DNA from: a virus
Virus record (IMG/VR): IMGVR_UViG_3300008735_000015
Location: 1 to 51,297 of that record
Length of the DNA stretch: 51,297 bases
Reading direction: 5' to 3' (one strand)
Both the position numbers and the translations under genes were made by a program. Positions 4,196 through 51,022 of the stretch are shown here, piece by piece; the stretch's first letter is position 1, and each line of letters starts with the position of its first letter. The notes beneath the pieces were generated by a model. It did no database searches and had not been told where the DNA came from. It worked only from the letters and a program-made list of their open reading frames with translations.

Positions 4196-4204
4196 GGTAT
4201 TGTT

Positions 4205-16064: not shown

Positions 16065-16122
16065 TAATAGTAGTTATATGTTTATATTTAACAAAGGTAT
16101 AAAACCCCAACAGGAGGACAAA

Positions 16123-19988: not shown

Positions 19989-22900
19989 ATGCCAAAGACA
20001 ACAGACCCTAGTATAGTTAAAGTCGGTGCAGGATCTAGTAGTTGCAATGATAAAGCAAAGGGGAACAGCACCACTCAGATTTTAATGCCTCAAGACGCTT
20101 ATGACGCTTCTCAGATCTCAGCCGAGAACCCCTTTGAAACGTATTTGGGTGATGAAGCTCAAAGTCATTTTGATGACTTAGCTTCTCAAGTGAGACATAA
20201 ACCTCCCCGCTTAGGGGAAGGCAGTAAGAGTTATTCTTTTGATTCTCTTTCTGCGAATCATTCAGGTAATCCTGATTGGGGTATGCTCAAGCAAGCAGAC
20301 AGTAAGATATGGGATCGCAAGAGCACAATAACTTTGGACGGTATCACCATAACCGATACCTCTAGTCATTTTAAGTTATCCGCTAGTGAGACGTTTGGTT
20401 ATAATCTGAAGACCTCAACCCCATCGGGAACTGCAAATGATGGGTCAGATGCACGAACAGATAGTGTCTTTAATGTGTTAGATGCCACCCCCATTTTATT
20501 AGGCGGGGGAGAGGGTGCTTCTTTCATCTGTAGTGTTCAGAAGGATAGCGGTAGAGTCCATCAACATGGACGTGTCATCCCTAGAGATGACGCTAATCTC
20601 ACTGAGTTAGCTTCTGCGAAAGAGGGCTTTACCGTATCGAGTTTATTATTCCCTGCGGATAGAGGTACAGTAGCTCTTTTGAGATGGGAAGATGGTGGCA
20701 CTACTAATCTTTCTTACACATCGGCTTCGAGTGTTTCCGACATCAAGAGCAGAGTTGTAGCTGCAATTAATCTTAATGGCGGGTTAAATGAAACAGATGT
20801 TTCTATTTTCACAGCAGGTACAGATCAGTCTGCCTTTCCTAGTAAGCTCACAGGTCAATATGATTTATATGAGATACAAACAGGAAAGAAAAGAGCTGAC
20901 TTAGCTAGTGGAGGTACAAACATAGCGTCCCTTCAAGCCAATAAAAACAAGAACTTAGGTTCAGTCCGTCTTTTAAGAGAGGCAAATGCGGCTTACTTTG
21001 GTGATGGGGTAACTACGGTAGACAGCACTAAAGGGCAACTCCCTGTTTTGGGCGGAGCTTATTCTTGGGATGGGTCTGCTTGGGTAGAAACAATCACAAA
21101 CTTCTTGTCTTATAGGCTTCCAGTTTTAGCGGATTATTCACCCAGTGGAGTAAAGACACCTACTTCAGAAAGGGAGAGATTCTTTTCTGTTGTCCAACCT
21201 GCTTCAACGACTACTGATTTTGATACTGCGGGAAACTATATTACCTTTGGAGATGACTTCTATACTTTCCAAGTAGCGAGGTTTAGGCACGTTGTTGATT
21301 ACTCTCTTTTAGAGCCTACGATCAATGACAGTACGGGTAGAAAGAAAGGCTCTTACGCTCTTGTTCATTTTAAAACTGAAGATGCTTTTGAGAGCCTTGT
21401 CCGAGACGGCATTCAACCGACTGAAGATGACTTATGGAGTGTGAACTTTATTAATGCTCTTGAGGTAGAGCATATAGACAATGTAGCTGTGGACGCTGAT
21501 GGTTATTCAGATAAGGGAGTACCTCAAGTTGAACCTGCCCTTGACTCGATTTCTAACCCGTTAGTTAGACCTAACATCCATGTTACAGAAAGAGGGGTCA
21601 ACCGATGGATATTTTCTTCTGAGGAGTTAGGTTTTGGTGTAGCACACCCAACACCTGTTGCTTCGGGAGATAGGGTAATTAAGAGAGAGAGAGGTTATTT
21701 CACCGTTATTTCGGGAGTTAAATATCTTTTGCCTAGAGGAAGTGTGGCAGTTAAACACCAATCCACTAACGTCTATCCTACAGTAAAGAACAATATAGCT
21801 TTCACTTTAACGCTCAACGCTGTTTCTACCGACCCAAGCATATACAACTTCACATACCCTCATTATTTAGACTCAGATGAGGGTACATCTCCTATTAGGA
21901 CTTTTAGTGAACCTTTTGACATCCACCAAATAAACTTAGGTGCTATAACAGCAAGCAACACCCTCACTGTTTATTCTCAACTCGGTCTAGGTACACTTGG
22001 CACAAAGACAACAACTGATCAGTTTATTACAATAAAAGTAGAGGACAAAACAAACGCCACTCACTCGACAAACATAAGAAGTGATTCTTTTGGTGTAGAT
22101 CTTTTAATCTACCCTAATGGAGATACAGGCATTTGTTCTTTCTCAGAGGGTGCTTTAGCAGGCATTTCGGTGAAAGACCCTACTTATCATTACGATGGCT
22201 TGGGGACATCTAAAGTCTTAAAGCCAACTGCAACAGGAGGTGAAAACGTAACTGTAAGTAAGAAGTGTTTATATCACTCGTCAAAACTTCATTCTTTGAT
22301 TGTGAGTGCTTCAACGACTACTGTTAGGGTGTATTTTGATCACCCTGCAAGCACCAATGCAACAGGTAAGTTCTTTTCTGTATTTAGGTATGACCAAGAA
22401 GGGTTCAGAATCTATCAGACATTGGAGAACTTAACAGGAAACATACAAGAGGTTTCAAGCGAGCACTCGAACGACACCACTTACGGTACAAACTACCCTA
22501 AATATGGGACTACATCAGCAAATGGGAATACTTCAGTCGCTCTGTCGCCTGAAGCAACTTTAGAAATGGTCATTGACGAACATTATTTCGTGGAGTATGG
22601 GCCGGGCTGTAGTTCTTTGACGGACTTCTTTGTTGTTTTTATTGCGGATAAAGATGCAACTGACGCAGGGTCTGAAGCTTCAGCATTATCCGCAAAGAAA
22701 GTCGCTCAAGGAAACACTAATGCTTATGTGACAAATTGGGATCGTTTATCGAGTGGTACTACATACGGACTAAATAGGATCAGTGTTAATCTCTTACAAA
22801 ACACAACTCGAAACAACACGCTTCCTTACCCTGCTTTCCAACCTGCTGCGTTCAACCTTAACTCTTATGACTTACATGAGGTGTTAAAAACGGGGGAAAT

Positions 22901-24110
22901 CGCTCCCGAATACGGGAATTTATTGCAAGGTAGGAGTGGGGTTATTTCTGTTCAAGGATTAGCTACTGATACGACACCACTTACTTTTATGAACGCCTAC
23001 GATCCTGCAACAGTGCCTTTAACTAGAAGAGCTTTTAGTGGTTTATTTACGGCTAGGAAAGACACTCAAGAAAGATTCTTAGATGAGTCGTACCGTATTG
23101 AATACAGGTTTACGGACATTACAGGAGTTAATAATCTGATAGGACCGGGATTACCTGATGGAAGTAATGCTCTTGAAGGGTTTTGGGTTAGAGATGATAG
23201 TGCATGGAACATGACAGGCACGAACTCAGTGCATGGTAGTGCAGGGTTCTTAAGAAATGGACACCATTGGGACTGGTCCATTTATTCGGGAGTAAATGGT
23301 GTGGAGGGCAATGCACAAGTTAGAGGTATGCCTGTTCTTTCTGATAATGTTTTGTCGGGAGGTAAGTATGGTCAACCTAGACGTGGTGTTTTAACTAGAC
23401 CGACTGAGAATTATCAAACCGCAGGTGCTTTTGTTCCAAACAATGACTACAGTTCCACATGGGATCAAAGCAGTAGTGTTCTTTCTTACACAGCAGGGTC
23501 AGCAAACAAATATTACAAGCAACCAAATAACTCAACCACAGGGACTTGGAATGATCGCCCCTTTTCTTATGTGAGAGCTTTTGATGTTTCTTTCAGTCAG
23601 TCTGGGACGGTTGAATCTATGGAGGGGACAAGTCGTTTCAAGATGAGACTTGTAGGTCTTGAGTACGATAACTTCAAGTATACGGGTGGTGATCGAAGAG
23701 TTGAGATTTATGTAAAAGTACCTGGCCTCACAACATGGTTAGATGTTGGTAGAACTGATGGAGAGGGAGCGAGCAAGCAAAGCACTACAGTAGATGGTGC
23801 AGGGTGTCTTGTTTCTTATCAACAAGGGATGCTTCTTGAGGAGGCTGTTTATTTCACAGATTTAGAGTTAGAAGTAGGCTCTAATGCTTCTTTCTTCCTC
23901 GACACTGTTTATAATAACTGTCCTGTTCTTGTGAAAGTTGTCATTCCTTTTAATGTAGATGCAATAGACGGGACTTTAACTTTCGGATTGCCCCCAAGTA
24001 ATATGGCTACAAATAAGCCACTGAGGGAAAGACGTGGCTTAGTAGGTATAGAGATACTGAGGATGTCCAATGGAAAGAACTTTGATGAAGATAGTGTAGT
24101 CTTCTTCTGA
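19989..24110 (+). CDS. Large virion-surface protein, unknown family
   Basis: The 1373-residue protein starts 3 bases after the previous stop. It is rich in Ser, Thr, Gly and Asn with alternating beta pattern and no signal peptide. Residues about 215-275 (VALLRWEDGG, then SDIKSRVVAAINLNGG) resemble the small beta/alpha module of the preceding protein. The C-terminal ~250 residues (SRFKMRLVGLEYDNF, then RRVEIYVKVPGLTTWLDVG) look like a separate beta-sandwich domain. No enzyme motif for depolymerase or chaperone autocleavage was recognised. Location between two fibre-type genes suggests a fibre segment or host-range protein. It could also be a hinge connecting to the 4225-residue protein. Confidence 0.7.
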   Translation: MPKTTDPSIVKVGAGSSSCNDKAKGNSTTQILMPQDAYDASQISAENPFETYLGDEAQSHFDDLASQVRHKPPRLGEGSKSYSFDSLSANHSGNPDWGMLKQADSKIWDRKSTITLDGITITDTSSHFKLSASETFGYNLKTSTPSGTANDGSDARTDSVFNVLDATPILLGGGEGASFICSVQKDSGRVHQHGRVIPRDDANLTELASAKEGFTVSSLLFPADRGTVALLRWEDGGTTNLSYTSASSVSDIKSRVVAAINLNGGLNETDVSIFTAGTDQSAFPSKLTGQYDLYEIQTGKKRADLASGGTNIASLQANKNKNLGSVRLLREANAAYFGDGVTTVDSTKGQLPVLGGAYSWDGSAWVETITNFLSYRLPVLADYSPSGVKTPTSERERFFSVVQPASTTTDFDTAGNYITFGDDFYTFQVARFRHVVDYSLLEPTINDSTGRKKGSYALVHFKTEDAFESLVRDGIQPTEDDLWSVNFINALEVEHIDNVAVDADGYSDKGVPQVEPALDSISNPLVRPNIHVTERGVNRWIFSSEELGFGVAHPTPVASGDRVIKRERGYFTVISGVKYLLPRGSVAVKHQSTNVYPTVKNNIAFTLTLNAVSTDPSIYNFTYPHYLDSDEGTSPIRTFSEPFDIHQINLGAITASNTLTVYSQLGLGTLGTKTTTDQFITIKVEDKTNATHSTNIRSDSFGVDLLIYPNGDTGICSFSEGALAGISVKDPTYHYDGLGTSKVLKPTATGGENVTVSKKCLYHSSKLHSLIVSASTTTVRVYFDHPASTNATGKFFSVFRYDQEGFRIYQTLENLTGNIQEVSSEHSNDTTYGTNYPKYGTTSANGNTSVALSPEATLEMVIDEHYFVEYGPGCSSLTDFFVVFIADKDATDAGSEASALSAKKVAQGNTNAYVTNWDRLSSGTTYGLNRISVNLLQNTTRNNTLPYPAFQPAAFNLNSYDLHEVLKTGEIAPEYGNLLQGRSGVISVQGLATDTTPLTFMNAYDPATVPLTRRAFSGLFTARKDTQERFLDESYRIEYRFTDITGVNNLIGPGLPDGSNALEGFWVRDDSAWNMTGTNSVHGSAGFLRNGHHWDWSIYSGVNGVEGNAQVRGMPVLSDNVLSGGKYGQPRRGVLTRPTENYQTAGAFVPNNDYSSTWDQSSSVLSYTAGSANKYYKQPNNSTTGTWNDRPFSYVRAFDVSFSQSGTVESMEGTSRFKMRLVGLEYDNFKYTGGDRRVEIYVKVPGLTTWLDVGRTDGEGASKQSTTVDGAGCLVSYQQGMLLEEAVYFTDLELEVGSNASFFLDTVYNNCPVLVKVVIPFNVDAIDGTLTFGLPPSNMATNKPLRERRGLVGIEILRMSNGKNFDEDSVVFF

Positions 24111-24172: not shown

Positions 24173-27100
24173 ATGGCTTCTACGAATGACTTAGATCGTC
24201 TAAAGAAATCTGCTCAAGGCATACAAGCAACCAATGACTCGAACTCTGAGCCTTTCTCAAGGGATAGAGTCGTTAGCTCTGAAGAAATCAAAACGGGTCT
24301 TTCGAGATTAAATGGCTCATGGGCGAGTGAGTATGCTTATGAGGGCGACTTAAAATTAAGAACAGGACTAGGCTTAGTTGGTTTTGGCGATATTGACTTT
24401 ATCCCTTACATTGAAAACTCAAATAGGATTGGGGTCAAGGGTAGCCCCTCTTTAGGTTCTCCTGTTTCTTTTGAAGTAGTCGGGCCTACTCTGAAGTCTT
24501 CCTTGATTGATTGGACTTGGGCATTAAATAAAACAAATAATACGCTTTCGTTAACTCATGGAAGCAAGACAATAGCGACTGAATATAATCTCAGCAACTC
24601 GGATATTGCGAACTACAATACAGACTTTGGTGGTTTATACATTTTGATTGCCCACGTTGGTACTTCCAATGAAAAGTGGACTTCAACTTTCTCACCCGCA
24701 ACGACCTCAAATAACAGAGCCACGACTCAAATCTTCAAAGTAGATAGCATAGACGCAGGGACAAATAAGATTGTTACCCTCTCTTCAAAAACCTCTCTTT
24801 CGGATTTCTTCTCGGCAGATGGAGATGTAGCAGGCGTAGTATTCCTCAGAAAGAAATCTTCTAGGATGTATGAAGTTCCTTCTAGTAATGGGACTTCTTT
24901 CTTCGTCATGCCACCCGAAACAACTTGCTCTCTTGATATAGAGCCTCCTCTCTCTAATTGGACGGCAGGCGGGTTCAGTAGTTATAAGACTTTAAGTGGT
25001 ACTTCAGGTGCGACAACGCAAAATGCGAGCTACTATGGAAACAGAGTAAAAACTGCTGTTCCTACTCCGTATTCGTTTGGTACGTCAGATCCTAACATCG
25101 AAGCCGTAGTTGAGTTTAACTTATCTACTGAGACGGGATTAGAGGGTGGTACTTCTTTCCTTAAAGTGGAGAGTTCAAATACAGCAGGGTTAGCACTTAT
25201 AGATAAGATTGGTGTCGCTAATCTTGTTGGTATGTGTATTCGCATCAATAAGGTTAGTGATGATATGGCTAACCCTAAACCAACTGAAGAGCAAAAAAAC
25301 TCTTTCTTTGGTTTTTACGAGGTTGTTGGTCAGGACACAAATGGAGGTAGCTATAGGCTAGCCTTAAGAAGTGTTACAAACCATAATCACTTATCAGGAC
25401 ACAAGACTTGGTTCGGTGTTGGTGGGAACAATGATTTAAAGGTTAATTTCACGATCCATAAGAGCGTTTCTCAAGTCCTAACGGGCAAGAACCCCCTCAC
25501 ACATGAGATTGAGTCGGCTAGAGTTAAGGCATTGATTAGCCCTAACTTAAACAGCAACTCTGAATCTTCAGAAAGTTCTTCCTCAAGTTTAATGAGGGGG
25601 AAGAAATGCACTTGGGTAGATGGAGAACCTTCTAACTTATCTGAGTTAGGCTTTGGAGTTGTTGTCTACCCTGCGAAGATCGACTCAAGCACAAACTCTC
25701 TTGTTGCTGACTTTAACAACCCTCTTTCTTCTGACTTGTACGATGTGGATTATGAGGGAGCTACGATCTATTTTAAGAGTGCCTATTCACAGGCACAAAA
25801 CATCACTGATCATGCAACTAACTTATCAAAGAAAACTGTCCTCTTTATTTCTTGTGTGGCTTTAAGCCAAGAAGCAAGTTTCGGCAATAGAGTCACCTCC
25901 CAAGGTAAGGGTGCTTTCTCAACTCCTTTAGTTCCTCAGATTTTAACTTCAACTTTAGATGAGTTAAGTGATGCTGCGAGCGGAAATCCAAGTGCTTTTT
26001 GGAGTGCAGGTACAAACTCAATCTTTATCCCTAATCTTAAAGCCAATCAGATCCCTGACACAGCTACTTTAATCAACTCCACTGTTGTACAGTCAGGTGG
26101 GGTTAATATTGACACTAAGATCACATACAGAGGAGCAACGGATTCAAATAACGGAGTCCTTCTTAACAATGTCATTGGAGATTTTAATTATTCAATGGCA
26201 GGAGGTATGTTAAATAATACAGTCAAATATACCTTCTTAAGAAACCCATTATTGACGAAAGAGCAGAGTGATTTAGCTGGTAGATCTGTGAGGTCTGAGA
26301 CTATTGATCTTACAGAGGGCTCAGTGTCTTATAATGCTGACGGTAGTCTTTCTCTTTCTGTTGAAGGATTGAGAACAGAAGAGTCAACTTTCCTTTTCGA
26401 TTCTTCTACTGATAAGTGGACAGTAGATTCAGATTCTTACGAGGTTGGTCTTGAGATCAAGCGTGGTGATCTTGTTGCATCTAACATAACAGAGATCCCT
26501 ACTACAAACTTAGAGGTTAAGCCTTTAGTTCTTCTTTCTAGTTCTAATGTAGACGCTACAGACGACACTCATAATGAGTCAATGTCGATTGACTTCCCTG
26601 CGTTCTCCGACTCCTCTTTTAAGGGAGAGATGGATCTTAGGGGGTTTTATCTTAATGTAGAGGGTGCTGGAGTAAGATCAGCTAAAATTGCAGACTTTCC
26701 TGATGGGAGTCGTGTGGTTTTAGGTTTGGATTTTGCAAACACAAAAGCGAACCCTTGGCAGAGTAAGTTGATGTCTTACAAGAATGCGACAGGAGGTGCT
26801 TTAACTCTTGCCCAACTTAAGACCAACCTAGATACAGAAATCAACAACGAATACTCGGACGACTACTCTCCCACAGGAAGTTTCTTCACAAATAGCGATG
26901 ATTGTTTAGTGATTTCGGGGCGAAGTCCTTCGGTGTTTCCTGCGTATTCTTATGTAACCACCGCAAGTGTAATATTCATTGTTGAAACTGTTTCGTCTGG
27001 CGTGCTTAACACCCCCGCACAAATAGGGACTTTTAAGTATCTCCTTTCTCTTGAAGAGGTTGGGGGGAATAAGTGGGTTACAGTAGCTGTCCCCGTTGAT

Positions 27101-30100
27101 TTAAGCTCGAATCTGTCTCATTCCTATGATGACATGAATGGGAATCTTTCTAAGACTACTAATGTAGCTAAAGAAATCTGTGACGCTCTAAATAAGGATC
27201 TCTATTTTGGACACTCAGCTAGACTCTTAAACCGAGCAGGATTTTATGAGGGCTTCCACCAAGATCTAAGTGGTACGGATGTAACAGTTAACCCTAGTCT
27301 TCAAGCTAAGATTACAGCTTATTCAAACCACACCGTTTATGGTGAGAGACAGGTTCTTTGGATTACAGTAGATGACCCTCGACACTCAAACTATGGGACA
27401 GCTAACTTTGACGAAGTAACTATTGAGTTAATCTGTACGGGTAGAGGTTGTGGAAAGATCCCTTTCATTGAAGGTGGGATTTCGGGAGACAATCTTAAAG
27501 TAGCAGCTTCAAAATCAGAGAACCAACTTATCAACGTAATTGTTTCTTTAGGTAAAGCTGAAGAGGGGACAACAGGCTCTCAAGTAATGCCTGTGATCTT
27601 TGATGGTGCTGATCATTCTGATTACAATCGTATTGGTCTTTATTGGGAATCAAGCACCTTACCTAATAACACAGTAGGTAATGTTCAGACTAAATCTGTG
27701 GATGCTCAAGCAGAAGCGAACAAAACTGTTTTGGGCTTTGATCGAAACGGCTTTCTCCCTGTTGGCCCTTGGCTTGGGTCTAGTCGGCTTATCGGAGGTC
27801 AAAGTACCTCTTCGACTACTCGACTGTATTTAGTAGATGATCTCCCTAAGAGAAATGAAAGAGAAGCGGGGAGTCCTATAAGGAATAGGCTAACTCCGAA
27901 CTACTATGTTAATGATGGCACTAAGTATTTTGATCTTCTTCCTTTCTTGGAAAACACATCAGGTTCAGCAGGGCAGAAAAATGTGGGCGAGTCTTTTGAC
28001 TTTCTAATCCAAGATCATTGGTTAGACAACCCTTCTTTCTCCTTCAACTCTGAGGATGATTTAACAGAGGAAGATTTAGGATTATACACATGGGTGTCTC
28101 GTGATCATGTATACCCTACATCTAACACTCTAACTGATACCTCGTACTTAGGTTTGGTTTGTACTTTCTCTTCAAATAGAAGAGAGTTTTCTAGCTTCAA
28201 GACCCCTTTAAGTAACAGCCCCACAGGACATGACGACTTTATTGTTACTATTCGGTCTGATTACTTCTCACCTTCTCTTTTTAGTTCTTCAGTATTGCAA
28301 GAGGGAGACGAGATTTACTTTGAGTCATCTGTCTCAGGTAACACTCGTAGGGCAAAAGCAAAGATCTATTACAGATCTAAAGACGGTAAAGGTAAGTACG
28401 AGCTTCAAGCGACTTTGAAGGCGATTAACGGGCAGTTCGGTGGCTTCAGTCAAGTAAACCATTTCCGACCTGTATTTACTTATTCATCAGACGCTTTCTC
28501 AGCAACGATAACAGAGTTCACAGGATCTAATCTTAACGGTGCTTCGTTGATTTCGGGCAACAACTTCTATTGGACAAGTGGTAATCTTAGAAGTCTTATT
28601 GACATTGCTTCAATCCCCAAAGAATTAACGTATGGTGAGATAACTCAAAATAGAGACACAGGGGCTGTTGACGGAGGTTTTGGTGCGTTCGGTTCACTCT
28701 CTGCTTCTTTACTCACAGGGGGCAGATTAGGGCTGTTTAATGGCTTACCTCAGAAGTATTCGGGGATTAGTTTTGCTTCCATCTCAGGAGGTCATTCGCT
28801 AAGAGGGAGTGATGGTGGGCAGGATATTAACGACAACGAGAGTTTCCCCGTAGATGTTTTAAGAACATACGAGACTTTCCTTGATCATGGTATCTTCTCG
28901 TTTGTAAGTTTACCAAAGGGTACGGGAGGTTCTTTCTCAAGCACTATTGGTCATCTTTCAAGAGAAAGAGACAAGAGATCTGATTACAAGAGTGGGTTGT
29001 TTGGCGGGAGTGCAGGTTTAAGAGTCTCAGGTGACATTCAACTATTTGTGAAGAACTTGAGGGTTCTAGGTAGTGATGACAATACAGCCTTTGTCATGCA
29101 CACAGACTTTGCTCCCCCTACGAGTACAGACTTTCTGATTGGAAACTCAGATGTCACTCTTGATGTTACTTCACCTTTCTTACCTTACAATCAGACAGGT
29201 ACAGGGCCGACCACTTCGGCTTTGCAATCTCAGAAATCTGCGAGTGGGTTTACTGATTTAGGTCTTAAATCTCAGGGCGGTTCTCATATGCCTTCGGGTG
29301 TTGGGTTATTTGGTCCTGTTTCTAGCACTCTTGTAACTGACGCTTCTGTAAGGCGTACAGCGACAATTTCTTTAGGTTTAACACTTGCCGACTTGAAGGG
29401 TATTTCTAAGAGTCTTGGTAGAGATGTAACTAAGCCTATCGGGGCTACAGAAAGAAAGACTACAGCAAACTTTCCTAATCAGTTTGGAGCTGAGTATGAC
29501 ATTGGGAATTCTATTTTCCACATGGCTCAGTTCTCTTCTTCTGAAATACCTTCAATGGCTCTGCCTACTTTGAATGGTGCATATGTTGGGTTGATGAAGT
29601 ACAAGCACTCTAGCTCACCCGATGTTAATCATGCCGATAACTTTGGTATTTATAGGATTATAGACACACCTGTTTTAATGCCTGTTGACGCTTCGGATCT
29701 AGAGTCGGGTCAAGGTAGTAGAAACACCTTACATGGCTATGGACACGATTATTCGACACATACAAGATCTTCGCTCAACACTGTAGTTGCTAACATTATG
29801 GTGAGGGTTGAATCTGAGGTTGTGAGATCAGTCTACCCTGATAGTGGTTTGGCTAACCAAGGAGGGTTATCTTTAACACCTACAGGGCTTGTTATAGATA
29901 AGGATTACAATGATAACACTAAGCTCAGTCGTAAAACTCAGCGTCTAGGTCACAGTTGGAGACTTTTGACCAAGGTCGCTAACGGCTCATTCCAAAACAT
30001 ATTTATTTTCGATGTTATGGATCAAGGAGGAAGCCCTACAAGTTCTCCATCAGATTTGTTTGGTCTTGAGCTTAATCCAAAGGCATTAGGAAAGTCTTCT

Positions 30101-33100
30101 TTCCCTGCGGAACTTGTATCTCTAGCTACCTCAAGCAATCACAACTCAGATATGCCCACAGACTTAGAGTTTGCTCCTGTTGATGTCTTTGATCAAGAAG
30201 AAGCGAATGGTATGTCTGTTGGGGTAAGACTTTTAGGTGTTCACAGGAACATGAGTCATAAAGGCAAAACAAGTTCTTTGGCTTTTGTGACTTCTCAGCC
30301 TCATGATGTCATTCAGTCGGATGGGGCTCAAGACAGGAACCCTCTCTTTGCTTATATAGACAATCTTAAAACACGTTTCGGAACTTTTACAGGTTCTTCC
30401 CCAGCTAGACTTGTTGTTTATAGTTCAGAAAGATCTGATCGTCTTGACGAGTCGGCTACTTCAACTACAAGACAACTGCTCGACAATGGGGAGACAGGTT
30501 ATGTTTCTTTGGGCTACCCTGAACGCTTTGGTTTAGGAGTTGTTCTCGATGGTGGTTTAGGAGTTGTTTCGGGTAATGCCGTTCGAGTTCACCCGCAGAA
30601 AGGGAACTTTGATTCTCTTGGTAGTCTTAGTGTGTATTCAAGTCCTTTAATGGACTCAAGAAATGACCTTAGAGATGGGAATGCAGTAAGTCTACCGAGT
30701 AGGTTTAATCGTACAGAGTTTTATGGGGATGTTGTCGTTGCGGGGCATGATTCTGATCTTGTGATAGATGACGCTCGTACAGTAGACGGTGCAGTTGCTC
30801 GTATGAATGAAGCACAGGCTTCGGCAGGTACGACTAAAAACTATCAGTCTAGGTTGTTAAGATTCGGTGAGAAGTGGAGTATGTTTGGATCATGGGGGGG
30901 AGGTAATGACTCTCAAGGTTTAATCACCTTCATAAAAGATACCTTACCTAATGTAGCCTCTAACGGGTCTAAAGTAGTTCTCCCCAATTCCTTCCTTTAC
31001 TCACCTCCACCTCCTATCCCTAACGACACGATCTTACCTTGGACTAACTCAGGTATAAGAGTTAAAGCAGGTGGTGGGGTAGTTTACGAAAGAGCGTTTA
31101 GACCACAAGACGCAACAGGCTCAGATATCATTGCTTCTCTTTCAAAGGGGGCAAAGTCTGATAGAGGTTTAAGAGGTTTGGAAATCCCTGCTTTCGGTGA
31201 ATGTTTACTATTGCCGAAAGGACCGCCTACACTTGGGGGTCGAGAGTTTAAGAAAGATCACATTTTAAGTTCCGATTTAAACTCTGTGGCTTATGGGGGT
31301 AAAACTAAAATAAGAACAGGCTTAACACCCACTGACCTACCTCTGTATGAATTCTACAATGGTCCAACAAGGTTTGCTTATGGAGGTGACTTCGCTATTT
31401 CTATTGGGAATGTCTTACAAGAGCATGGGGAGTTTGGGCGAGAGAACTATAGTTCGTCTTTTTTACCTGTAAATAATGCACCTAAGAAAAACTTAGCCAC
31501 AGGGACTTATGGTGGTGGAGAGTTTGACCCTGGCATTCTTTCTCAAGCCTACAACCATTCTAGGTCTAATGCACATGGTAAATGGGGAGGGCAAACTGAG
31601 CTTCTTTCTAACACTTTATATAGTGGGGATGTAGATGTTTACGTTTACGCTTTCTACAACTCGTCCTCTTCTGTTTCAGATGAAGGTTTTGCTATCTTTT
31701 ATTTAGATACAGCGGGTAGAAAGATTTATGTTGATATCCAAGCTTCCGCTTATGAGAGTACCGCTACTGCACCTCTTGAGAGTAAAACAGATCCAAGTGG
31801 TAACAGTCGCCCTTTCTTTAAAGCCAAAACCGCTAGCCAGCTTCCTTTAAATAACACATCGACTTGGAACGCTTCGGGAAGTTTTAAGCTCGGTAATATT
31901 AAGATTTCAACAGTCACACAAGTGTTCTTCATAGAAACTACGGTTAATACCGCAGATGGTGGTGATCCTGACATTGCTTTATTCTTTTATAAAGACGCTT
32001 CTATTGCGAACCCTTCTTCAGTTCCATTTACTCTAGATAATGGGCACACAACTTACTCAACCACTACCCCTTTCTTGTCACTTTATCCAGCCACAGGATC
32101 TAATCTTTCAAGCAGTAGTGGTCAATATATAAATAAGATTAGTTGGCCTTATTTAACTACCCCCACACCTTGGACAGACGCTTCTCCGACTTACGGATAC
32201 ACACATAACTTAACCCAAGCTAATTTACTTTCTGAAGGTCTAACTCAAAAACACATAGATAATGTGTTCACTGCTCCTTCCGACTACAAATCTTCCCCTC
32301 TTCAAGTAAGATTGATGGATGGTATGGTTTTGGAAGATGTAACTACGGGGGCTTTTTATTCTATTGGGGAGGTAGGTAGATTTAGAGGTTGGCACACTCA
32401 TTTAAAGCCTTTAGGTCAACCTGGGGATTTCATTAAATACCAACACACTAATCTTTATCATAGTGATTACAGCTCTCTTTCCGATGACCCAAGCTCTTTA
32501 ATCACAAACCCCCCCATAAGAACAATGAATATGGGTAGTGCTATAGGAAACAACGGAAGCACGACAGCAGAGTTATTTTATGATCTATCTCATCATTTTG
32601 ATTTTGAGCAAGATTGTTTGGATAGAAATAGTGCTGATTCTCAAAAGAATGGTTTCGGAGACATATCTGACAACGGATATGTTCGCAGACCATTAGTAGG
32701 ACACAAATTTAGGGTAGTTCCCAATGTAGAGTTTGTTCCTGTACTTGGTCATAGATCTGTCAAAGGTGGTCTTGCTGTCCCTTATGATAAAGATAACTCT
32801 TATGCTACTTACATTAAAGAAGCTGACGCAATATTATATGATGAAAACTATCAATTCCTAAGCAGTGATATAGGGAGAAAGATATACATTTGTGGTACAT
32901 ACGAGTATGCTTACGTTGGTTGGTACGTCATAACAGATATTCAGAAAGATTACTTAGTTAATCCGTTTACAGGTATTGGGTCGAGTGACTTAAAGACGTT
33001 TGATGTAGCTGTGGTTAGAAAGATCAAGAGAAGTGGTGAGTACATAAGGAATTGGAGTGGTGGTGAGGGTTCTTTATTACCACTACGACCTGTGAATCCA

Positions 33101-36100
33101 ATTTTAGAATCAAGTCTAGACGCTTCCTCAAACGGGAAGAGGATCTACTTAGACAGCACTGAAAAAAATTACGATATACATCTTTGTGATCCTTACTTAC
33201 CTCAGAATCAAGCAACGGAAATGGCATATGCTTACGGACCCGTACACACTACAGACGTAACCAACATTGGAGGGTATCAAGCGACATCACCCTTATGGCT
33301 AGGATTAAATGTTTGGACAGAAGACGGAGGGAATAGATTCTTTGGGGTGATTGCAGATCACACTGATCTTTCTTCTTGGACAAACCAATCAGTTGCAGAA
33401 TTAGTCACTCAACTTAACTCTGACTCAAACTTTAATGGGATTCGCATAGGTAGGTCTTTAAAGTCTTTTAATATCAACCAATCTTCAGCCTCTTACGTTG
33501 GTTGGGATACTTATAATGATGAAAAGTTTATTAAGTGGGTTGTGAAATATTCTATTCAAGACAAAAACACTCAATACCCCGTACATAGCACTAAAAACTA
33601 TGTTATTTGTGGTCTAAGTTGTGAGCTAGACACAAGCTCACTCTCAGAGCTTCAGAAAAAGAACTTGTTAAACAGAGGTAGCTTTTTAGAAGTGGACTTT
33701 CAGTTTCATCCTCAGATCAACTCTTCAACTCATATTGAATCAAACAAAACCCTCCTTTCTCACGACAGAGAATCGAGAGGGTTTTTCCAAACTAAAGGTG
33801 TGAACACTAATGTTTGTGTTTCTTGGGCTGATAAAAACAGTTATCTACCTAATCAATACGAGGGGTATTCTGAAAATGCGAGTGTGAGTGCCTTTAGTTA
33901 TGTTACATATCAGTCAAATCAATCAGCAGGCGACTACTTGTTTGTAGGGGCAGACTATTCGACTTTAACTGTAGGGAACTTAAGAGTTTCACAATCGGCA
34001 ACGGGTGGTGTTCGTTGGGTTTTCTCAGCACCTTTGTTAGAAGAAAACGTAGGTTCTTATGTTCATTTAACTAAACCAAGACCTTACCGTTTTGGTCAAC
34101 CTACTTACACTCAAAACCAAAGACTTCAAAACTCTCTTTCTTCGACCTACACGAATCCTTTTGGATGGGCTTCGGGCTGGCAAAGAAAGAAAGATATTGA
34201 TTCATCGCAAGGAAGCGAGCCTTTTGATCTCGGCACTGACATATTTAGAGTCAACCGTTGTCCCTCTACAGGGGATATCCTTTTAGGGGGTGATTGTGAA
34301 TCTTACTCTGTCGAAGATATTCATTGTAGAACAAGAGGTGGGTTTACCCAAAAGGGAATGCAAATATCTTACTCCCCCCTTTCAGTTATGGGTAACTGGC
34401 CTGATTCTGATACAAATGAATTGCCCGAAACAGGGTCTTTAAACTACCCTATTCTTTATGCTTTACAACCTATAGCTAGAGAAAGAATAATTACAATCAA
34501 GCCTTCTTCTGCGACAAGCTCAGTTTTGATGGCTCATGGGGAGTATGGTGTAGCCCCTATGGTAATACCTGCTTCACCTCTTGCCTTAGATACTGATAAT
34601 GCAATACATACTAGGTTCACAGACCCTACTAACTTTGTTGCAGAAACTGACAATACTGATGGGTTCTTAATCGTAGATGGAGACGGACTCACCACTCCTG
34701 GAACTAATGTTCCGACTGTATCAATCAGAACCACATTCAATCATAGTCAATATGGTTCTGATTATGTGTTCGGAGAGCGTATTATGATGGATGTATCACG
34801 ACCTTGGTTATTGCTAGGCCGTGAAAACGTTTCTCAGACTTACAGGTATTTAGGAGGTTCTACATCTAACTCTGCGTCTAATTCTCTAACAGGAATCCCC
34901 CACCCTCATTCTTCATATGAGGGGGATGCAATCATGTGGAACTCTGAGTTAGAAGGAGGTAACACCGAGTCTTTTAAACTTGGGGGTGATAGTTATAACA
35001 AACTTACTGACACAAGCGACTCGATGATTAACGCTATATATACTTGGTCGCCTTCGGGAGAATGGTGGCAACTCCAAACTCCTTTATATATGGGATTCCA
35101 AAGTGCTTTCTTAAATGAGACAGCCCCCCCACCTACTTTGCGTATAGATTTAACAGAAAGCTACACGCAAGCTAGCTCTTCAGGTTCGGGTTTAAATAGC
35201 CCTTACATTGGGCGAAATCCGAAAGGGTCTAGGCTAAATAGAATTTGGGTCAACTTCGGTGTGGACGGAGATAACTCAGACTTTCCTGGGTCTTTATATA
35301 GCGACTTCTCTGATGAGTTTTACACTTCTGTTGCAAGTGGTAGAGATGACCACCTTGATAATATAACTCCAAGAACCAAAAGAATTTCCTCAGCTGAAAG
35401 TCCTGATACCTATGAGTACGTTAAAAGAAGAAGAAGAAACTCTTCAATCACATTTAACTTAGTAGTGGAAATCCCTGGCTCTATAGCGAACTCTGAAGAT
35501 ACTTATTACATGGATGGGGTTGCAAATGATTGGTCTTCTATCGAAACGAAAGAATATAGTTTTTCTCCTTTAGGTGGGTCGAATGGTTCTGCTTTTGGGG
35601 GGAGGATGCCAAGTGGTTCTTATAACCACTCAAGCAATGCCTTAAGAATCGCTAACTCTGCTCAAAAAGGAAAGCCGAGATATGCAGGGGGGACTATTGT
35701 AGTTCCTCTGTATATAAATAGAGAAGCAGGTGATTTAATGCCTAACGTAATGGAGAGGTTTGTTACGGTAGGTCCAGCTCGCTTCAAGTCCGATTCTGAA
35801 GCAGTGAGAGATTGGGCTATTGGTGATAGTAGACATGGTTTGGGTGCTGTTGGGAATGGACACACAAGCTTTCTTTCTAACTCAGACACAGATAGCGACA
35901 CTTTTATTAATGATCATGATTACCCTAACTTAGATATCAACTCATTTACGCCTGTTGTGTGGGGAGGTCAGAACTTTTATTCTGACGACACCACTTTAGT
36001 AAATTATTTAGGTTTGGGGGCAGGGAATATCACTTTACCAAACTTATCTACTTTTAAAGATATAAGAAGTGCAGGGGTTTTAGGCTCTCCTTTACCTAGA

Positions 36101-36850
36101 AGCTCCCGTACAGGTGGGGGTGTCCTCTCGTCTTTCTCTTCAGGTTTGTTCTCAGATATGGCGATTTTCTCACCCGACCACACCAACTTTGAAATGGCTT
36201 TACATTCTTCTGCAACAACAGGAATTACCATTGCACATGGGTCAGGATTTCAAGAAACTTTCGCTTCAGTATTCCAAGAAAGCTACGCTCAAACAGATGC
36301 AGGTAAATACGGTAAACAAATCACTGGAAATGCCTCTGCTGACTATGCGGTGAGATCTCAAGCTACTAAGTCTAGTCCTCATTCATTTACGATTGCTTTA
36401 ACTCCCGTTGGGGACTTCTTTGAAGCTCCTAACTCCTCTATAAATATGCCGACCGTCAGTTCGGGGAATTTGTACGCTACAGAAGGAAGCACAGGTGCGA
36501 ATGACTTATATTCTGATGGAAATAACAACTACGCTTCTTTAGGTCGATATGGACGTACTCTGAATGTTTCTCAAGGCACAGACCCTAAAGACCGCAGGTT
36601 TAAAGTAGGTAATTGGTTAGATTACATTTTAGATTATTATGGAATCCCCGCTCAAAGTGGTTCTATGCTACCGCCAGGGGCGAGAGTCTACTTGGAAGTG
36701 GCTGTCCCTTGGCCCCGAAGACACTATATTGCTACAAGTCGGTTCTCAAATAATGGGGCTTGGATCTCTTCTGTAAAATGTGCGTTTGAAGTTGAAACTG
36801 CTGATGGTACAGCATGGACACAAGATGTAAACACTATGGGAGAAGACTGA
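24173..36850 (+). CDS. Giant 4225-residue virion/fibre protein
   Basis: One uninterrupted frame of 12,678 bases starts at ATG 24173 with GAGGT upstream; a TATAAT (24149-24154) lies in the 62-base gap but lacks a clear -35. The protein is Ser/Gly/Asn/Asp-rich, dominated by beta-type alternation. It has few cysteines, no signal peptide, no visible membrane segments and no tandem repeat that I could see by eye. The N-terminal 100 residues (MASTNDLDRLKKSAQGI, then SEEIKTGLSRLNGSWASEY) are helical and may be the virion attachment part. The C-terminus ends in a compact basic domain (AVPWPRRHYIATSRF). Its place among fibre-type genes argues for a very long tail fibre or surface filament. This size is far above the usual 300-1300 residues of tail fibres. 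Confidence 0.78.
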   Translation: MASTNDLDRLKKSAQGIQATNDSNSEPFSRDRVVSSEEIKTGLSRLNGSWASEYAYEGDLKLRTGLGLVGFGDIDFIPYIENSNRIGVKGSPSLGSPVSFEVVGPTLKSSLIDWTWALNKTNNTLSLTHGSKTIATEYNLSNSDIANYNTDFGGLYILIAHVGTSNEKWTSTFSPATTSNNRATTQIFKVDSIDAGTNKIVTLSSKTSLSDFFSADGDVAGVVFLRKKSSRMYEVPSSNGTSFFVMPPETTCSLDIEPPLSNWTAGGFSSYKTLSGTSGATTQNASYYGNRVKTAVPTPYSFGTSDPNIEAVVEFNLSTETGLEGGTSFLKVESSNTAGLALIDKIGVANLVGMCIRINKVSDDMANPKPTEEQKNSFFGFYEVVGQDTNGGSYRLALRSVTNHNHLSGHKTWFGVGGNNDLKVNFTIHKSVSQVLTGKNPLTHEIESARVKALISPNLNSNSESSESSSSSLMRGKKCTWVDGEPSNLSELGFGVVVYPAKIDSSTNSLVADFNNPLSSDLYDVDYEGATIYFKSAYSQAQNITDHATNLSKKTVLFISCVALSQEASFGNRVTSQGKGAFSTPLVPQILTSTLDELSDAASGNPSAFWSAGTNSIFIPNLKANQIPDTATLINSTVVQSGGVNIDTKITYRGATDSNNGVLLNNVIGDFNYSMAGGMLNNTVKYTFLRNPLLTKEQSDLAGRSVRSETIDLTEGSVSYNADGSLSLSVEGLRTEESTFLFDSSTDKWTVDSDSYEVGLEIKRGDLVASNITEIPTTNLEVKPLVLLSSSNVDATDDTHNESMSIDFPAFSDSSFKGEMDLRGFYLNVEGAGVRSAKIADFPDGSRVVLGLDFANTKANPWQSKLMSYKNATGGALTLAQLKTNLDTEINNEYSDDYSPTGSFFTNSDDCLVISGRSPSVFPAYSYVTTASVIFIVETVSSGVLNTPAQIGTFKYLLSLEEVGGNKWVTVAVPVDLSSNLSHSYDDMNGNLSKTTNVAKEICDALNKDLYFGHSARLLNRAGFYEGFHQDLSGTDVTVNPSLQAKITAYSNHTVYGERQVLWITVDDPRHSNYGTANFDEVTIELICTGRGCGKIPFIEGGISGDNLKVAASKSENQLINVIVSLGKAEEGTTGSQVMPVIFDGADHSDYNRIGLYWESSTLPNNTVGNVQTKSVDAQAEANKTVLGFDRNGFLPVGPWLGSSRLIGGQSTSSTTRLYLVDDLPKRNEREAGSPIRNRLTPNYYVNDGTKYFDLLPFLENTSGSAGQKNVGESFDFLIQDHWLDNPSFSFNSEDDLTEEDLGLYTWVSRDHVYPTSNTLTDTSYLGLVCTFSSNRREFSSFKTPLSNSPTGHDDFIVTIRSDYFSPSLFSSSVLQEGDEIYFESSVSGNTRRAKAKIYYRSKDGKGKYELQATLKAINGQFGGFSQVNHFRPVFTYSSDAFSATITEFTGSNLNGASLISGNNFYWTSGNLRSLIDIASIPKELTYGEITQNRDTGAVDGGFGAFGSLSASLLTGGRLGLFNGLPQKYSGISFASISGGHSLRGSDGGQDINDNESFPVDVLRTYETFLDHGIFSFVSLPKGTGGSFSSTIGHLSRERDKRSDYKSGLFGGSAGLRVSGDIQLFVKNLRVLGSDDNTAFVMHTDFAPPTSTDFLIGNSDVTLDVTSPFLPYNQTGTGPTTSALQSQKSASGFTDLGLKSQGGSHMPSGVGLFGPVSSTLVTDASVRRTATISLGLTLADLKGISKSLGRDVTKPIGATERKTTANFPNQFGAEYDIGNSIFHMAQFSSSEIPSMALPTLNGAYVGLMKYKHSSSPDVNHADNFGIYRIIDTPVLMPVDASDLESGQGSRNTLHGYGHDYSTHTRSSLNTVVANIMVRVESEVVRSVYPDSGLANQGGLSLTPTGLVIDKDYNDNTKLSRKTQRLGHSWRLLTKVANGSFQNIFIFDVMDQGGSPTSSPSDLFGLELNPKALGKSSFPAELVSLATSSNHNSDMPTDLEFAPVDVFDQEEANGMSVGVRLLGVHRNMSHKGKTSSLAFVTSQPHDVIQSDGAQDRNPLFAYIDNLKTRFGTFTGSSPARLVVYSSERSDRLDESATSTTRQLLDNGETGYVSLGYPERFGLGVVLDGGLGVVSGNAVRVHPQKGNFDSLGSLSVYSSPLMDSRNDLRDGNAVSLPSRFNRTEFYGDVVVAGHDSDLVIDDARTVDGAVARMNEAQASAGTTKNYQSRLLRFGEKWSMFGSWGGGNDSQGLITFIKDTLPNVASNGSKVVLPNSFLYSPPPPIPNDTILPWTNSGIRVKAGGGVVYERAFRPQDATGSDIIASLSKGAKSDRGLRGLEIPAFGECLLLPKGPPTLGGREFKKDHILSSDLNSVAYGGKTKIRTGLTPTDLPLYEFYNGPTRFAYGGDFAISIGNVLQEHGEFGRENYSSSFLPVNNAPKKNLATGTYGGGEFDPGILSQAYNHSRSNAHGKWGGQTELLSNTLYSGDVDVYVYAFYNSSSSVSDEGFAIFYLDTAGRKIYVDIQASAYESTATAPLESKTDPSGNSRPFFKAKTASQLPLNNTSTWNASGSFKLGNIKISTVTQVFFIETTVNTADGGDPDIALFFYKDASIANPSSVPFTLDNGHTTYSTTTPFLSLYPATGSNLSSSSGQYINKISWPYLTTPTPWTDASPTYGYTHNLTQANLLSEGLTQKHIDNVFTAPSDYKSSPLQVRLMDGMVLEDVTTGAFYSIGEVGRFRGWHTHLKPLGQPGDFIKYQHTNLYHSDYSSLSDDPSSLITNPPIRTMNMGSAIGNNGSTTAELFYDLSHHFDFEQDCLDRNSADSQKNGFGDISDNGYVRRPLVGHKFRVVPNVEFVPVLGHRSVKGGLAVPYDKDNSYATYIKEADAILYDENYQFLSSDIGRKIYICGTYEYAYVGWYVITDIQKDYLVNPFTGIGSSDLKTFDVAVVRKIKRSGEYIRNWSGGEGSLLPLRPVNPILESSLDASSNGKRIYLDSTEKNYDIHLCDPYLPQNQATEMAYAYGPVHTTDVTNIGGYQATSPLWLGLNVWTEDGGNRFFGVIADHTDLSSWTNQSVAELVTQLNSDSNFNGIRIGRSLKSFNINQSSASYVGWDTYNDEKFIKWVVKYSIQDKNTQYPVHSTKNYVICGLSCELDTSSLSELQKKNLLNRGSFLEVDFQFHPQINSSTHIESNKTLLSHDRESRGFFQTKGVNTNVCVSWADKNSYLPNQYEGYSENASVSAFSYVTYQSNQSAGDYLFVGADYSTLTVGNLRVSQSATGGVRWVFSAPLLEENVGSYVHLTKPRPYRFGQPTYTQNQRLQNSLSSTYTNPFGWASGWQRKKDIDSSQGSEPFDLGTDIFRVNRCPSTGDILLGGDCESYSVEDIHCRTRGGFTQKGMQISYSPLSVMGNWPDSDTNELPETGSLNYPILYALQPIARERIITIKPSSATSSVLMAHGEYGVAPMVIPASPLALDTDNAIHTRFTDPTNFVAETDNTDGFLIVDGDGLTTPGTNVPTVSIRTTFNHSQYGSDYVFGERIMMDVSRPWLLLGRENVSQTYRYLGGSTSNSASNSLTGIPHPHSSYEGDAIMWNSELEGGNTESFKLGGDSYNKLTDTSDSMINAIYTWSPSGEWWQLQTPLYMGFQSAFLNETAPPPTLRIDLTESYTQASSSGSGLNSPYIGRNPKGSRLNRIWVNFGVDGDNSDFPGSLYSDFSDEFYTSVASGRDDHLDNITPRTKRISSAESPDTYEYVKRRRRNSSITFNLVVEIPGSIANSEDTYYMDGVANDWSSIETKEYSFSPLGGSNGSAFGGRMPSGSYNHSSNALRIANSAQKGKPRYAGGTIVVPLYINREAGDLMPNVMERFVTVGPARFKSDSEAVRDWAIGDSRHGLGAVGNGHTSFLSNSDTDSDTFINDHDYPNLDINSFTPVVWGGQNFYSDDTTLVNYLGLGAGNITLPNLSTFKDIRSAGVLGSPLPRSSRTGGGVLSSFSSGLFSDMAIFSPDHTNFEMALHSSATTGITIAHGSGFQETFASVFQESYAQTDAGKYGKQITGNASADYAVRSQATKSSPHSFTIALTPVGDFFEAPNSSINMPTVSSGNLYATEGSTGANDLYSDGNNNYASLGRYGRTLNVSQGTDPKDRRFKVGNWLDYILDYYGIPAQSGSMLPPGARVYLEVAVPWPRRHYIATSRFSNNGAWISSVKCAFEVETADGTAWTQDVNTMGED

Positions 36851-37566
36851 TGATTATAATGTCTCGAAAAGATGACACTCCGATTCAGACGATTAAGTCT
36901 TTTGACGAGGATATACACATGAATGGAAAGTATATACTCGACTATCCTGACTGTATCGAAATTGGGAAAGAGCTTGGGGCTAATGATCCATTCAATCTGA
37001 ACACCCTTACCACAGCGATTGAGTCCAAGTTTTTAGCCCAATACCCATCGTATGATTATTTAATTTATAAACCATTGAGAGATTCCTCAAATGAGTTTGA
37101 CTCAGCTCAACTATTTCCTAAGAGTACAGGTCATATACCTTCTCGCTTTAGGGTCGGCTCTACACCAAATGTCGCTTGTATCCCAAAAGAAACAAGTGCA
37201 GGTAGGAGTGGCGTGGGTATTACTTCTAATACAGATATTACAGCTCTCACTAATGATAATACGGGTAGAGAAACATTCTTACTGTATTGGAGAATAGTTA
37301 AAAAAGTGGTCTCGCATGATGTAACACCCGTTTCTTTAACAGGATATAGCCAAGCAACGACAAATACTCCCTCTAAGATGACTTATGTAGAAGCTTCTGA
37401 TTCCGAGTATTCTGTTTATATCTCAGAGAACAATGGAAACACTTACGAGAAAGTAACAAGACTAACACCGTTTTCATTTGATCAGAAAGCCGATGCAGTT
37501 CGTGTCGCATTCTTAAATGAAAGTAGCACTGATCTTTACATACTCTCGTATGCCCTTATGTTTTAA
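36850..37566 (+). CDS. Small virion protein next to giant fibre
   Basis: The start is placed at 36850 (238 residues, MIIMSRKDD), where ATG overlaps the giant gene's TGA by one base with GGGAGA a few bases upstream. A second ATG at 36859 is possible; the frame extends upstream to 36814 without signal. No family was recognised. The N-terminal 80 residues are mixed, followed by a Ser/Thr-rich stretch. A C-terminal beta domain (EYSVYISENNGNTYEKVTRL, then ADAVRVAFLNESSTDLYIL) resembles a fibre tip or carbohydrate-binding fold in pattern only. Tight coupling to the 4225-residue gene suggests it is made with it and may cap, chaperone or bind it. Confidence 0.65.
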   Translation: MIIMSRKDDTPIQTIKSFDEDIHMNGKYILDYPDCIEIGKELGANDPFNLNTLTTAIESKFLAQYPSYDYLIYKPLRDSSNEFDSAQLFPKSTGHIPSRFRVGSTPNVACIPKETSAGRSGVGITSNTDITALTNDNTGRETFLLYWRIVKKVVSHDVTPVSLTGYSQATTNTPSKMTYVEASDSEYSVYISENNGNTYEKVTRLTPFSFDQKADAVRVAFLNESSTDLYILSYALMF

Positions 37567-37580: not shown

Positions 37581-40500
37581 ATGGCAGATAACTTTAAAGA
37601 TGGCGTAAGTAGAGTTTTAGAAGTAGCGAATCGACAACTCTCTAATGTAATTTGGCAGTCGGGTAAGCCCCCACTCGATAGTGAACTGAACTTAGTCGGT
37701 CAAATCGGGTGGGAAGCTCTTTCTGAAGCTTTAAGAGCACAAACCCCAAGTGGGTTTTTGATGAACCCAACAAGTGCTGATGAAGACTTTGTTTTCTATA
37801 ATCAGTCCACTAACTATTTTGAGATCAAGAGAGACACTTCTAGTCCTCTCTCCGCCCTCGTAAATGGTTGGGTCATTCCTGTACTTGGATCAGAAAGCTC
37901 TGATGGAGTGGCGAACGCCATTAAGTTACCAGCACCTCCCACCACTGATTCTGAAACTAATATCGTCTTTCTTGAAGTTTGGAGAGCTGTTTTAGATCCT
38001 AGTGATTCAAATAACCGACCTGACGCAAACTCTATATATAAGTATGGAAATGTCCTCTATTCAGCTGGGGCTTCTGAAGCAGACGAAATGACAGATCCTA
38101 CTCTTGGGTTTGAAACAACAAAGCGAGTACAGGTTCAATACCGATTAAGAGTTCAAGGGTCTAATGTAAATATTGTTACTTACCCTTCGGGTCTTGGTGA
38201 TCCCGATGTGCTTGCTCAAGGTACAACAGTTGCCCCTGTTGTTAACTATCCTTTCACTAATCAGAAAGATAATGGCGACAGTGGGTTATGGAGAGCAGGG
38301 GCAGGAGACACCCAATCTAAGACTGACTTAGGTACAGTAGACGGATATGTTTACGCTATTCCTGTATGTGCGGTTTTCCGTAGAAACAGTAATGCGTACC
38401 AAGCCATCTCTGACGGGTCTCCTAACCATAATGGTTCTGTTTCAAGAAGACCGACCATTTCATCTGCTATTATTTCTGAAACAACTTTAACAGCCGACCT
38501 CGCTTATAATACGGCAGTCCCTACAGCTAACGTGGGCTTCTCTATTTCGGGTGGTCTTGAGTCAGCTTTAGATGACGCAGGATTTATGGGGGATGTTCAA
38601 GGAGGGTCTACAAAAAGGTTCTTAGTTTTAGGTAGTGGTGTGAACCGAGAGGTGATCTCTATCACAAGCATTGATGCAGTGAATAATCTGTTCACGATTG
38701 CTGATCGAGGTAGAGCAGGTACTGTGGCTAAGAATCATGTGGCAGGGACAAAGATTGAAGTATACAACTCACGTCCTGATGGGTTGTTCGCTGATCAGAT
38801 TGTTTCTGATGACGTGTTGGATTTAAGGCACTCAGTTAACTTAGGGGAGTGGGACTACAATCGACTTTTAGAAAGTGCGATAAACGATCTCTTATTTGGA
38901 GATTTAAGAACAACCTTTAAACAAGCAGGTACAGGTTCAAATTCAATAGGAAAGAAAGTTGAAGAAGTTTCTGTGCTTGTTAAGTTAGAGGGTGAGGCTA
39001 GAAACTATGCAAATGTTGTGGATGCTCCTGACGGAATAAGAACTACTTGGTCAGACGCTCCTGTAGTCCAAAAAGATGTGAGCTTTCTGATTGACCCTAA
39101 TATAGCTGTTGGTGCAGGAGGTTTAACTACCTCTAAAATGGACAGTGTATTACAAACGACATGGACAATTGGAGCTAAGTTTGAGCCTGAAGGTTTCTTG
39201 TATACTGCACCTGCAAGTCAACCCATTCAAAACGGGTCTTGGATTAAGTTTAAAATCGGAGGGGATGGTGGTTCTTTAGGTGCTAGAGCAAGTATAAACT
39301 CAACCAACAATAAAGTAGTGAGGTTTATTTCTCCTTCAGAAGTGAATGGGAAGTATGACCCGTTCAAGTTATTTTTCACTAACTTCAACCGTCCGAATGG
39401 TTTTGGAGAAAGTTCTACTCAAGGTGAATATGTCTCACCCACAAAATTGAGCAACTTTGAAGAGCCTTTCATTGTACTTGGAGATATGATCAGCACTTCA
39501 GGCAATCTTACTGTTGATGTAACTGCAAATGGGGTAGGACACTTAAGAAATCTTAAAAGTAAATTCGACAACACTGTAAAGTATTGGGCGATAAAGACCT
39601 CAGTAGACTTCGATGGTTTTTACAACACAAATGTTTTACATAACACGACTACTCTTTCTAAGTTAATAACTAACAATGGGACAGACCCAAGTGGTGAACA
39701 TTCTAAGGCATATTGTGTTTTGTTTGGGGATAAAGAAAATCAGATCACAAACAATGGTGTATTCAAAGTTGTAGGTGTAGGAACGAACACAACACTGCTC
39801 TCAGATTTAGTTCACGCAGACGATTCTTCTTGGACAGGTTCGACAGACTACATTAATAACTCCTCTCAATGGGTCTATTTAAAAAGAGTAGGTGGAACAA
39901 CCTCCGTTTTTGTAACTGAGGCAGATCACAATCTTACACTCGAAATCAGAACTCAATATCTTGATAGTCGGGATAGTGAGTGCATGATTGCTTTCACTAA
40001 CACTGACACTGCGAGCTATCCTAACTTACCTGCTGTTGCAGACCGTACTTCTCCGATTCTTATTTCCACAACTCTTCAGTACCCACCAGCTCGTGGTGGG
40101 GCTGTTCGTGTTTTAGATAATGTACATACAATCGGTCTGAGAAACATTGCTTCTCCTTATCTCAGAAACTCCCCTACTACTTTAGACACCAATGCTGCTT
40201 CTGAAATCCCTATGGCGAATGGTGAGGTTTATTTACCTGTAAACAACCATATTGAAAGTTGGTCTAAGCTCGATCTTTCTGACACAGAAGAGATCTCCAA
40301 CAGCCAGATCAAGAAAGAGTCAGAGACTTTTGCTGATTTAGGTTCTAAGACTTTTGTGGTTAGACCTTACCAAGATCATGGTATTCGTTTAGTTGGTCAT
40401 ACACTCGGAAGCTCTGCAATCGGTCAAATACACTACAGTGATACCACCACTAAAAAGTTTGGAGATAACTTAGAGATCTTCAGTGACAACAGACTTGAAG

Positions 40501-43440: not shown

Positions 43441-43506
43441 ATGGGAGTACCCGCTAGAGTTGTTAGTGTGAGAGTAGCAAGTCGTTATCTAGCGTCTATT
43501 CGCTAA
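43441..43506 (+). CDS. Possible 21-codon basic peptide
   Basis: An ATG with GAGGT 8 bases upstream opens a 21-residue frame with ARVVSVRVASRYLAS in the middle and end. The composition (Arg, Val, Ala, Tyr, no acidic residue) is not random-looking. It resembles the Arg-Val-Ala-Arg start of the proteins at 2234 and 45498. It overlaps the 3' end of the convergent metallopeptidase gene by 18 bases and may be a chance ORF. Confidence 0.25.
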   Translation: MGVPARVVSVRVASRYLASIR

Positions 43507-50688: not shown

Positions 50689-50761
50689 TACACCAAACAG
50701 GGCTCGAACCTGTAACCTACGGCTTAGAAGGCCGTTGCTCTTCCGATTGAGCTATTGATGC
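50689..50761 (-). tRNA. tRNA-Arg (anticodon UCU)
   Basis: A full cloverleaf of 73 bases folds on the minus strand. The acceptor GCATCAA pairs with TTGGTGT (two wobbles). The D-stem is GCTC/GAGC, the anticodon stem ACGGC/GCCGT with loop CTTCTAA, and the T-stem ACAGG/CCTGT with loop TTCGAGC. The anticodon reads AGA. CCA is not encoded, so the host must add it. Confidence 0.93.
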
Positions 50762-50785
50762 GTAGGTGTTCCTTTTTTTACCACA

Positions 50786-50872: not shown

Positions 50873-50910
50873 TTTCCTCGACCACCACCACTAGGGTTAG
50901 GGGTCTGAAA

Positions 50911-50982: not shown

Positions 50983-51022
50983 AAAGTTGAGTTAAGCGGA
51001 TTTTCAAAGAGAATTAAGTTTA

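Follow-up and report, generated by a model that had tools for sequence, protein, structure and literature searches.

The unbroken 4225-codon frame at 24173–36850 (+ strand; start ATG, stop TGA) of the window, the whole 51-kb virus record analysed here, is a genuine gene, strongly conserved in uncultured huge phages. Sequence comparison places its 4225-aa product in a family not described before, whose members are very long (about 1,000 to 5,100 residues) and have an apparent anchoring start in common; the literature searched, which gave partial coverage, contained no description of this family. We think it probable that this product represents the long version of a modular tail fibre or spike on the baseplate of huge contractile-tailed phages.

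From base composition, 4,225 codons in a row would escape a stop with a probability of about 1e-116; when the window was shuffled 20 times, the longest open run reached 179 codons. A purine-rich AGAGAGG stands directly 5' of the ATG, and the stop codon overlaps the start of the next gene (TGATG). Full-length orthologues were found in four other IMG/VR lineages (4249, 4204, 4296, and 4234 aa; 46–65% identical), with the same neighbours and gene order as in the window and at identities close to those of the large neighbouring proteins. Their occurrence on independent contigs rules out a chance frame, an assembly artefact or a gene fusion. Between the gene and its orthologues, synonymous sites are near saturation and pN is ~0.26; because pN/pS lies below 0.65 in every 250-residue block, the gene has been selected over its whole length. 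This purifying selection, together with whole-length conservation, also rules out a hypervariable adhesin for the long class of proteins defined below. The original prediction presented a single protein; it is not a singleton, having four full-length orthologues and a wider family, but the family itself is new, with no match in Pfam, PHROG, the PDB or cultured phages.

The features that had been read from the letters alone held up well. As claimed, the unbroken frame contains no recognisable domain: the protein matched zero Pfam and PHROG families, even at E = 1, and its profile matched no PDB chain at E ≤ 10. More specifically, no receptor-binding, fibre, spike, beta-helix or chaperone (S74-type) domain was recognisable with Pfam or PHROG. 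Neither BLASTP self-comparison nor profile-profile comparison revealed internal repeats, in keeping with the simple repeats said to be lacking, and nucleotide repeats in the gene were limited to short, scattered, chance-like pairs. The maximum 19-residue hydropathy is 1.63, so that, again as predicted, no membrane segment is expected. The composition is indeed of beta type, with 36% S/T/N/G and only 8% K/E, and that of the 1078-, 1373- and 1792-aa neighbours is similar.

The frame had also been placed among fibre-type genes, and the surrounding genes do form a contractile-tail baseplate cluster. A gp25-like baseplate protein (9140–10186, +; PHROG 975, E = 2.7e-7; PHROG 43, E = 2.1e-5) is followed by a gp6/J-like baseplate wedge protein (10183–13470, +; PHROG 6, E = 2.5e-32), which is 37% identical over 100% of its own length to that of LR745208, a 485-kb uncultured phage, and distantly akin to those of Tunturiibacter phage Tunturi_5 and Bacillus phage G. 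After the wedge gene come, in this order and all on the + strand, genes for proteins of 864 aa (13470–16064; no library match), 219 aa (16078–16737; a conserved operon marker, PHROG 5417, function unknown), 1078 aa (16750–19986; related to Tunturi_5 gp247, annotated 'tail fiber protein', and to phage G gp211), 1373 aa (19989–24110), 4225 aa, 250 aa (36814–37566), and 1792 aa (37581–42959; N-terminal parts in common with the 1078-aa protein). Homologues of the 1373-aa protein also lie 5' of the family gene in distant relatives, and homologues of the 250-aa protein lie 3' of both long and short forms; the 250-aa gene more likely starts at 36850, in the TGATG overlap, than at 36814. Given the gp25-like and wedge genes, and the relatives of the 1078-aa protein in cultured phages, the cluster is the baseplate/fibre operon of a contractile-tailed phage. 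This is most likely a huge phage, since a relative sits on a 275-kb contig.

Elsewhere in the window are a staphylococcal-nuclease-like endonuclease, 5' of the baseplate genes (1869–2237; PHROG 452, E = 9.6e-34), and a 328-aa protein (43489–44475, −) that contains the motif HEVGHWLHW, matches the Pfam zinc metallopeptidase family Peptidase_Mx1 below threshold (E = 0.0018) and may be a virion or lysis-related protease. A 171-aa protein (48027–48542, −) has weak matches to DprA/SLOG-type nucleotide-binding proteins, and two tRNA-Arg genes (anticodons TCT and CCT; 50689–50983) lie at the window end.

A scan with the wedge protein yielded 35 loci, whose downstream regions were then fetched. The slot between the 1373- and 250-aa homologues in these loci is occupied by proteins of 1203–2110 aa that match the window protein over the first ~600 residues of both (E = 1e-32 to 1e-51). 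HMM and BLAST scans with this N-terminal module (N-module) found about 40–45 distinct proteins, on contigs up to 619 kb, with total lengths in the whole family of 998–5,090 aa. In the long class, homology is collinear along the chain; it comprises five members of the window clade and others of 2954, 3412, 3789, 4077, 4346, and 5090 aa, plus two further members, of which one crosses from one end of a 289-kb contig to the other and one is truncated where its contig stops. The first of these two (L185 and L186; 2705 + 762 aa) spans both ends of its 289,014-bp contig, which suggests that the contig is a circular phage genome. The largest member, of 5090 aa (L180:841–16113), has downstream neighbours of the 250-aa and 1792-aa type. 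The short class (~30 lineages, 998–2212 aa) has only its first ~600–850 residues in common with the window protein, and its ends are unrelated to the long class and mostly unrelated to each other. Where flanks are present, long and short forms usually lie between the same neighbours.

The long-class C-terminal part was absent as a separate gene from 33 records that do not have the long form, some of which are fragments, and the family gene was not seen in the searched regions of LR745208, the fetched contigs L055 and L058, phage G and Tunturi_5. In cultured phages, tblastn with five queries found nothing homologous to the 4225-aa protein. A first scan of bacterial genomes returned no relative, and a later scan returned a single match (L187), in an 'uncultured bacterium' bin that names no host. 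Near the LR745208 baseplate region, on the other strand, is a 3642-aa frame (L067:6287–17215) with neither a Pfam match nor a match to the 4225-aa family.

The N-module, residues 1 to ~640 (24173–26092, +), is common to both classes by HMM and BLAST matches. Structure prediction with a Foldseek search, one of the checks proposed with the original prediction, gave an AF2 model of this module from 45 sequences (pLDDT 69.3, pTM 0.76) that is mostly beta with some helices and has no significant match in the PDB, its fold matching nothing known; the prediction for residues 3100–4225 was unusable (pLDDT 26.6). The fold search hits of the N-module to a norovirus P-domain and to phage tail proteins have a TM of ~0.1 and were set aside; three BFVD hits below 1e-3, a tail fibre-like and a tail protein among them, likewise combine a TM of ~0.1 with low probability and do not count as evidence. 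Of 45 N-modules, a single one matches PHROG 16120 ('virion structural protein'), at no better than E = 0.005, and none has a significant Pfam, PHROG or PDB match. In the N-module tree the long form is scattered, with four changes, at least three of them forced by supported branches, which means that gain, loss or replacement of the distal part has occurred several times.

Two of the short-class ends carry signatures of a right-handed beta-helix: NosD at residues 1210–1315 of the L159 protein (E = 1.5e-7, above the Pfam cut-off) and Beta_helix at residues 1849–1973 of the L135 protein (E = 4.6e-5, just below it). Tailspike bodies are usually beta-helices. These two ends are the best evidence that the N-module may carry surface appendages. 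Among five long-class members tested, none has a Pfam domain.

Within the long class, conservation is highest at residues 2800–2990, 3200–3460, and 3600–4225. The middle region, residues 1500–2480 (28670–31612, +), is conserved within the class, best at 2100–2200 and 2300–2400. It is followed by an insert, residues ~2490–2700 (31640–32272, +), confined to the window clade, to which other long proteins align 0 to 8 of every 100 residues. The insert weakly resembles one in the 1373-aa neighbour (~22220–22970; profile match, E ~3e-4 to 2e-3) that is missing in distant relatives of that protein, a likeness unconfirmed by HMMER on small domain models. One domain was possibly duplicated into both proteins; paralogy of the two proteins was rejected, as the single weak match, unconfirmed by HMMER, joins the two inserts only. 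The conserved C-terminal half consists of residues 2710–3460 (32300–34552, +), with an invariant cysteine-containing stretch at ~3363–3385, and residues 3600–4225 (34970–36847, +), the best-conserved stretch of the class, which in the window protein ends in VETADGTAWTQDVNTMGED. Nearly all complete long members terminate in a variant of WVGSVKxxFxVETADGTAxxxDVNxLGDE; the shortest (2954 aa) departs from this motif at the very end.

If the distal tip were the site of adaptation to hosts, it might be expected to evolve faster than the anchor. The long class shows the opposite: between the window protein and lineages outside its own clade, residues 3600–4225 are 36–48% identical, against 23–29% for the N-module. 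The main lineage pairs agree between trees of the N and C parts, and pairwise identities in the two parts correlate (r = 0.85–0.90), so that the two parts seem, on sequence grounds, to evolve as one protein. Exchange of the C-terminal half among long-class lineages is not supported by these trees, which share their main pairs, several deeper branches being poorly supported. The conserved C-terminal half speaks for a conserved partner, whether a shared receptor, a role in assembly or trimerisation, or a second virion site. The suggestion of a host-range protein is accordingly doubtful for the long class, where conservation peaks in the C-terminal half and this half changes in step with the N-module.

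We interpret the 4225-aa protein as a virion component that would act as a long fibre or spike. Its N-module (~600 residues) would dock on the baseplate, probably beside the 1373-aa and 250-aa gene products, and the next ~3,600 residues would form a beta-rich extension that ends in the conserved C-terminal functional part. The chain would be a fibre, perhaps trimeric; by analogy with T4, a trimer of 4225 residues might be roughly a few hundred nanometres long. Extending from the baseplate, this filament would touch the cell surface, perhaps at a receptor, and a signal would pass from it to the baseplate before contraction. In relatives, this N-module is joined to ends that are shorter and exchanged, beta-helix spikes among them.

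Several observations argue for this fibre or spike reading: the operon position after the gp25- and gp6/J-like genes; neighbours related to the annotated Tunturi_5 tail fibre and phage G gp211, and retained around long and short forms alike; a common N-module joined to unrelated ends, with totals of 998–5,090 aa; the beta-helix signatures in two short-member ends; and the beta-type composition with a mostly beta N-module model. The scattered long form, with its three or more forced changes, points further to distal parts that are exchangeable. Three points stand against it: no fibre, spike, receptor-binding or chaperone domain is recognisable in the window protein; the N-module has no significant fold match; and, in contrast to a typical receptor-binding tip, the long-class C-terminal half is better conserved than the N-module.

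Comparison with described systems leads to a similarly qualified view. Tailspikes and tail fibres are described as following a plan of a conserved N-terminal anchor and an exchangeable distal domain (PMC12692247, PMC13082707, PMC10408124). The 4225-aa family resembles them in its baseplate/tail operon, its common N-module, its varied ends and the beta-helix ends of two relatives. It differs in being much longer, in having no sequence similarity to any described family and, in the long class, in having a distal half that is the most conserved part. Because no distal domain is recognisable and the tip does not evolve faster than the anchor, we regard the 4225-aa protein as a variant of this plan, not a proven member. 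T4 gp34 and gp37 are long, mainly beta, and have the N-terminal end on the baseplate (PMC3004832), as the proposed fibre would; the 4225-aa chain is at least three times longer (the proximal half-fibre protein gp34 has 1289 residues; PMC3004832), and its sequence matches nothing in Pfam, PHROG or the PDB. Tunturi_5 gp247 and Bacillus phage G gp211 come from related baseplate regions and are homologous to the 1078-aa neighbour only, no homologue of the 4225-aa protein having been found in these phages.

The same data bear on other readings. An integral part of an enlarged baseplate (wedge, girdle or platform), with its whole length packed on other baseplate proteins, would fit a level of conservation that equals that of the structural neighbours from end to end, parts that evolve together, and a C-terminal half that is best conserved. 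This reading is unlikely, though it deserves to be taken seriously: many related phages manage with the N-module and a short unrelated end, and two of the short ends are beta-helices as in tailspikes. We give a rather small chance to the idea that the long class forms an appendage of its own kind, one chain of ~3,000–5,100 residues, conserved at both ends, that would run from the baseplate to a conserved second site (the phage's own sheath or neck, or a universal host component) and serve as a tether or trigger instead of a strain-specific receptor-binding fibre. A filament with both conserved ends anchored, joining the baseplate to the tail sheath, neck or capsid as a whisker or coiled outer structure, would account for the conservation of both ends and not of much of the middle, and phage G, a distant relative by its wedge and 1078-type proteins, is reported to have a coiled outer structure around its sheath (PMC13282480). 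Such a filament is nonetheless improbable, as neither tblastn of the phage G record nor a profile search of a phage G region found a homologue of the 4225-aa protein, and there is no sign that the C-terminal end sits on the sheath or neck. A role as tape measure, or as another protein inside the tail, would fit the great length and its differences between lineages, but is very hard to reconcile with an S/T/N/G-rich beta-type composition, an N-module modelled as mostly beta rather than largely alpha-helical, a gene that lies 3' of the gp25 and gp6/J genes and not before the baseplate genes, and an N-module shared with proteins that end in beta-helices.

The fibre or spike reading bears on the proposed 'new class of very long surface filament' as follows. 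What stands is a new family of the baseplate/fibre operon with a common N-module and very variable length; although the family is new, its kind is already known, and it is no new class of machine. Its length is not unprecedented, since proteins of up to 7,694 aa have already been reported from huge phages (PMC7162821), in a passage that gives no family or modular plan for them. Those giant proteins come from the same kind of virus and fall in the same size range. Thus what is new seems to be the family, its modules and the distribution of long and short forms, and not size alone. The analysis supplies a family definition and module boundaries for giant unannotated proteins of uncultured huge phages, in which one anchor module carries ends as different as short beta-helix spikes and a conserved extension that exceeds 3,500 residues. 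It also frames a testable question: why several phage lineages retain a chain of 3,000–5,100 residues in which conservation is stronger at the far end than at the anchor.
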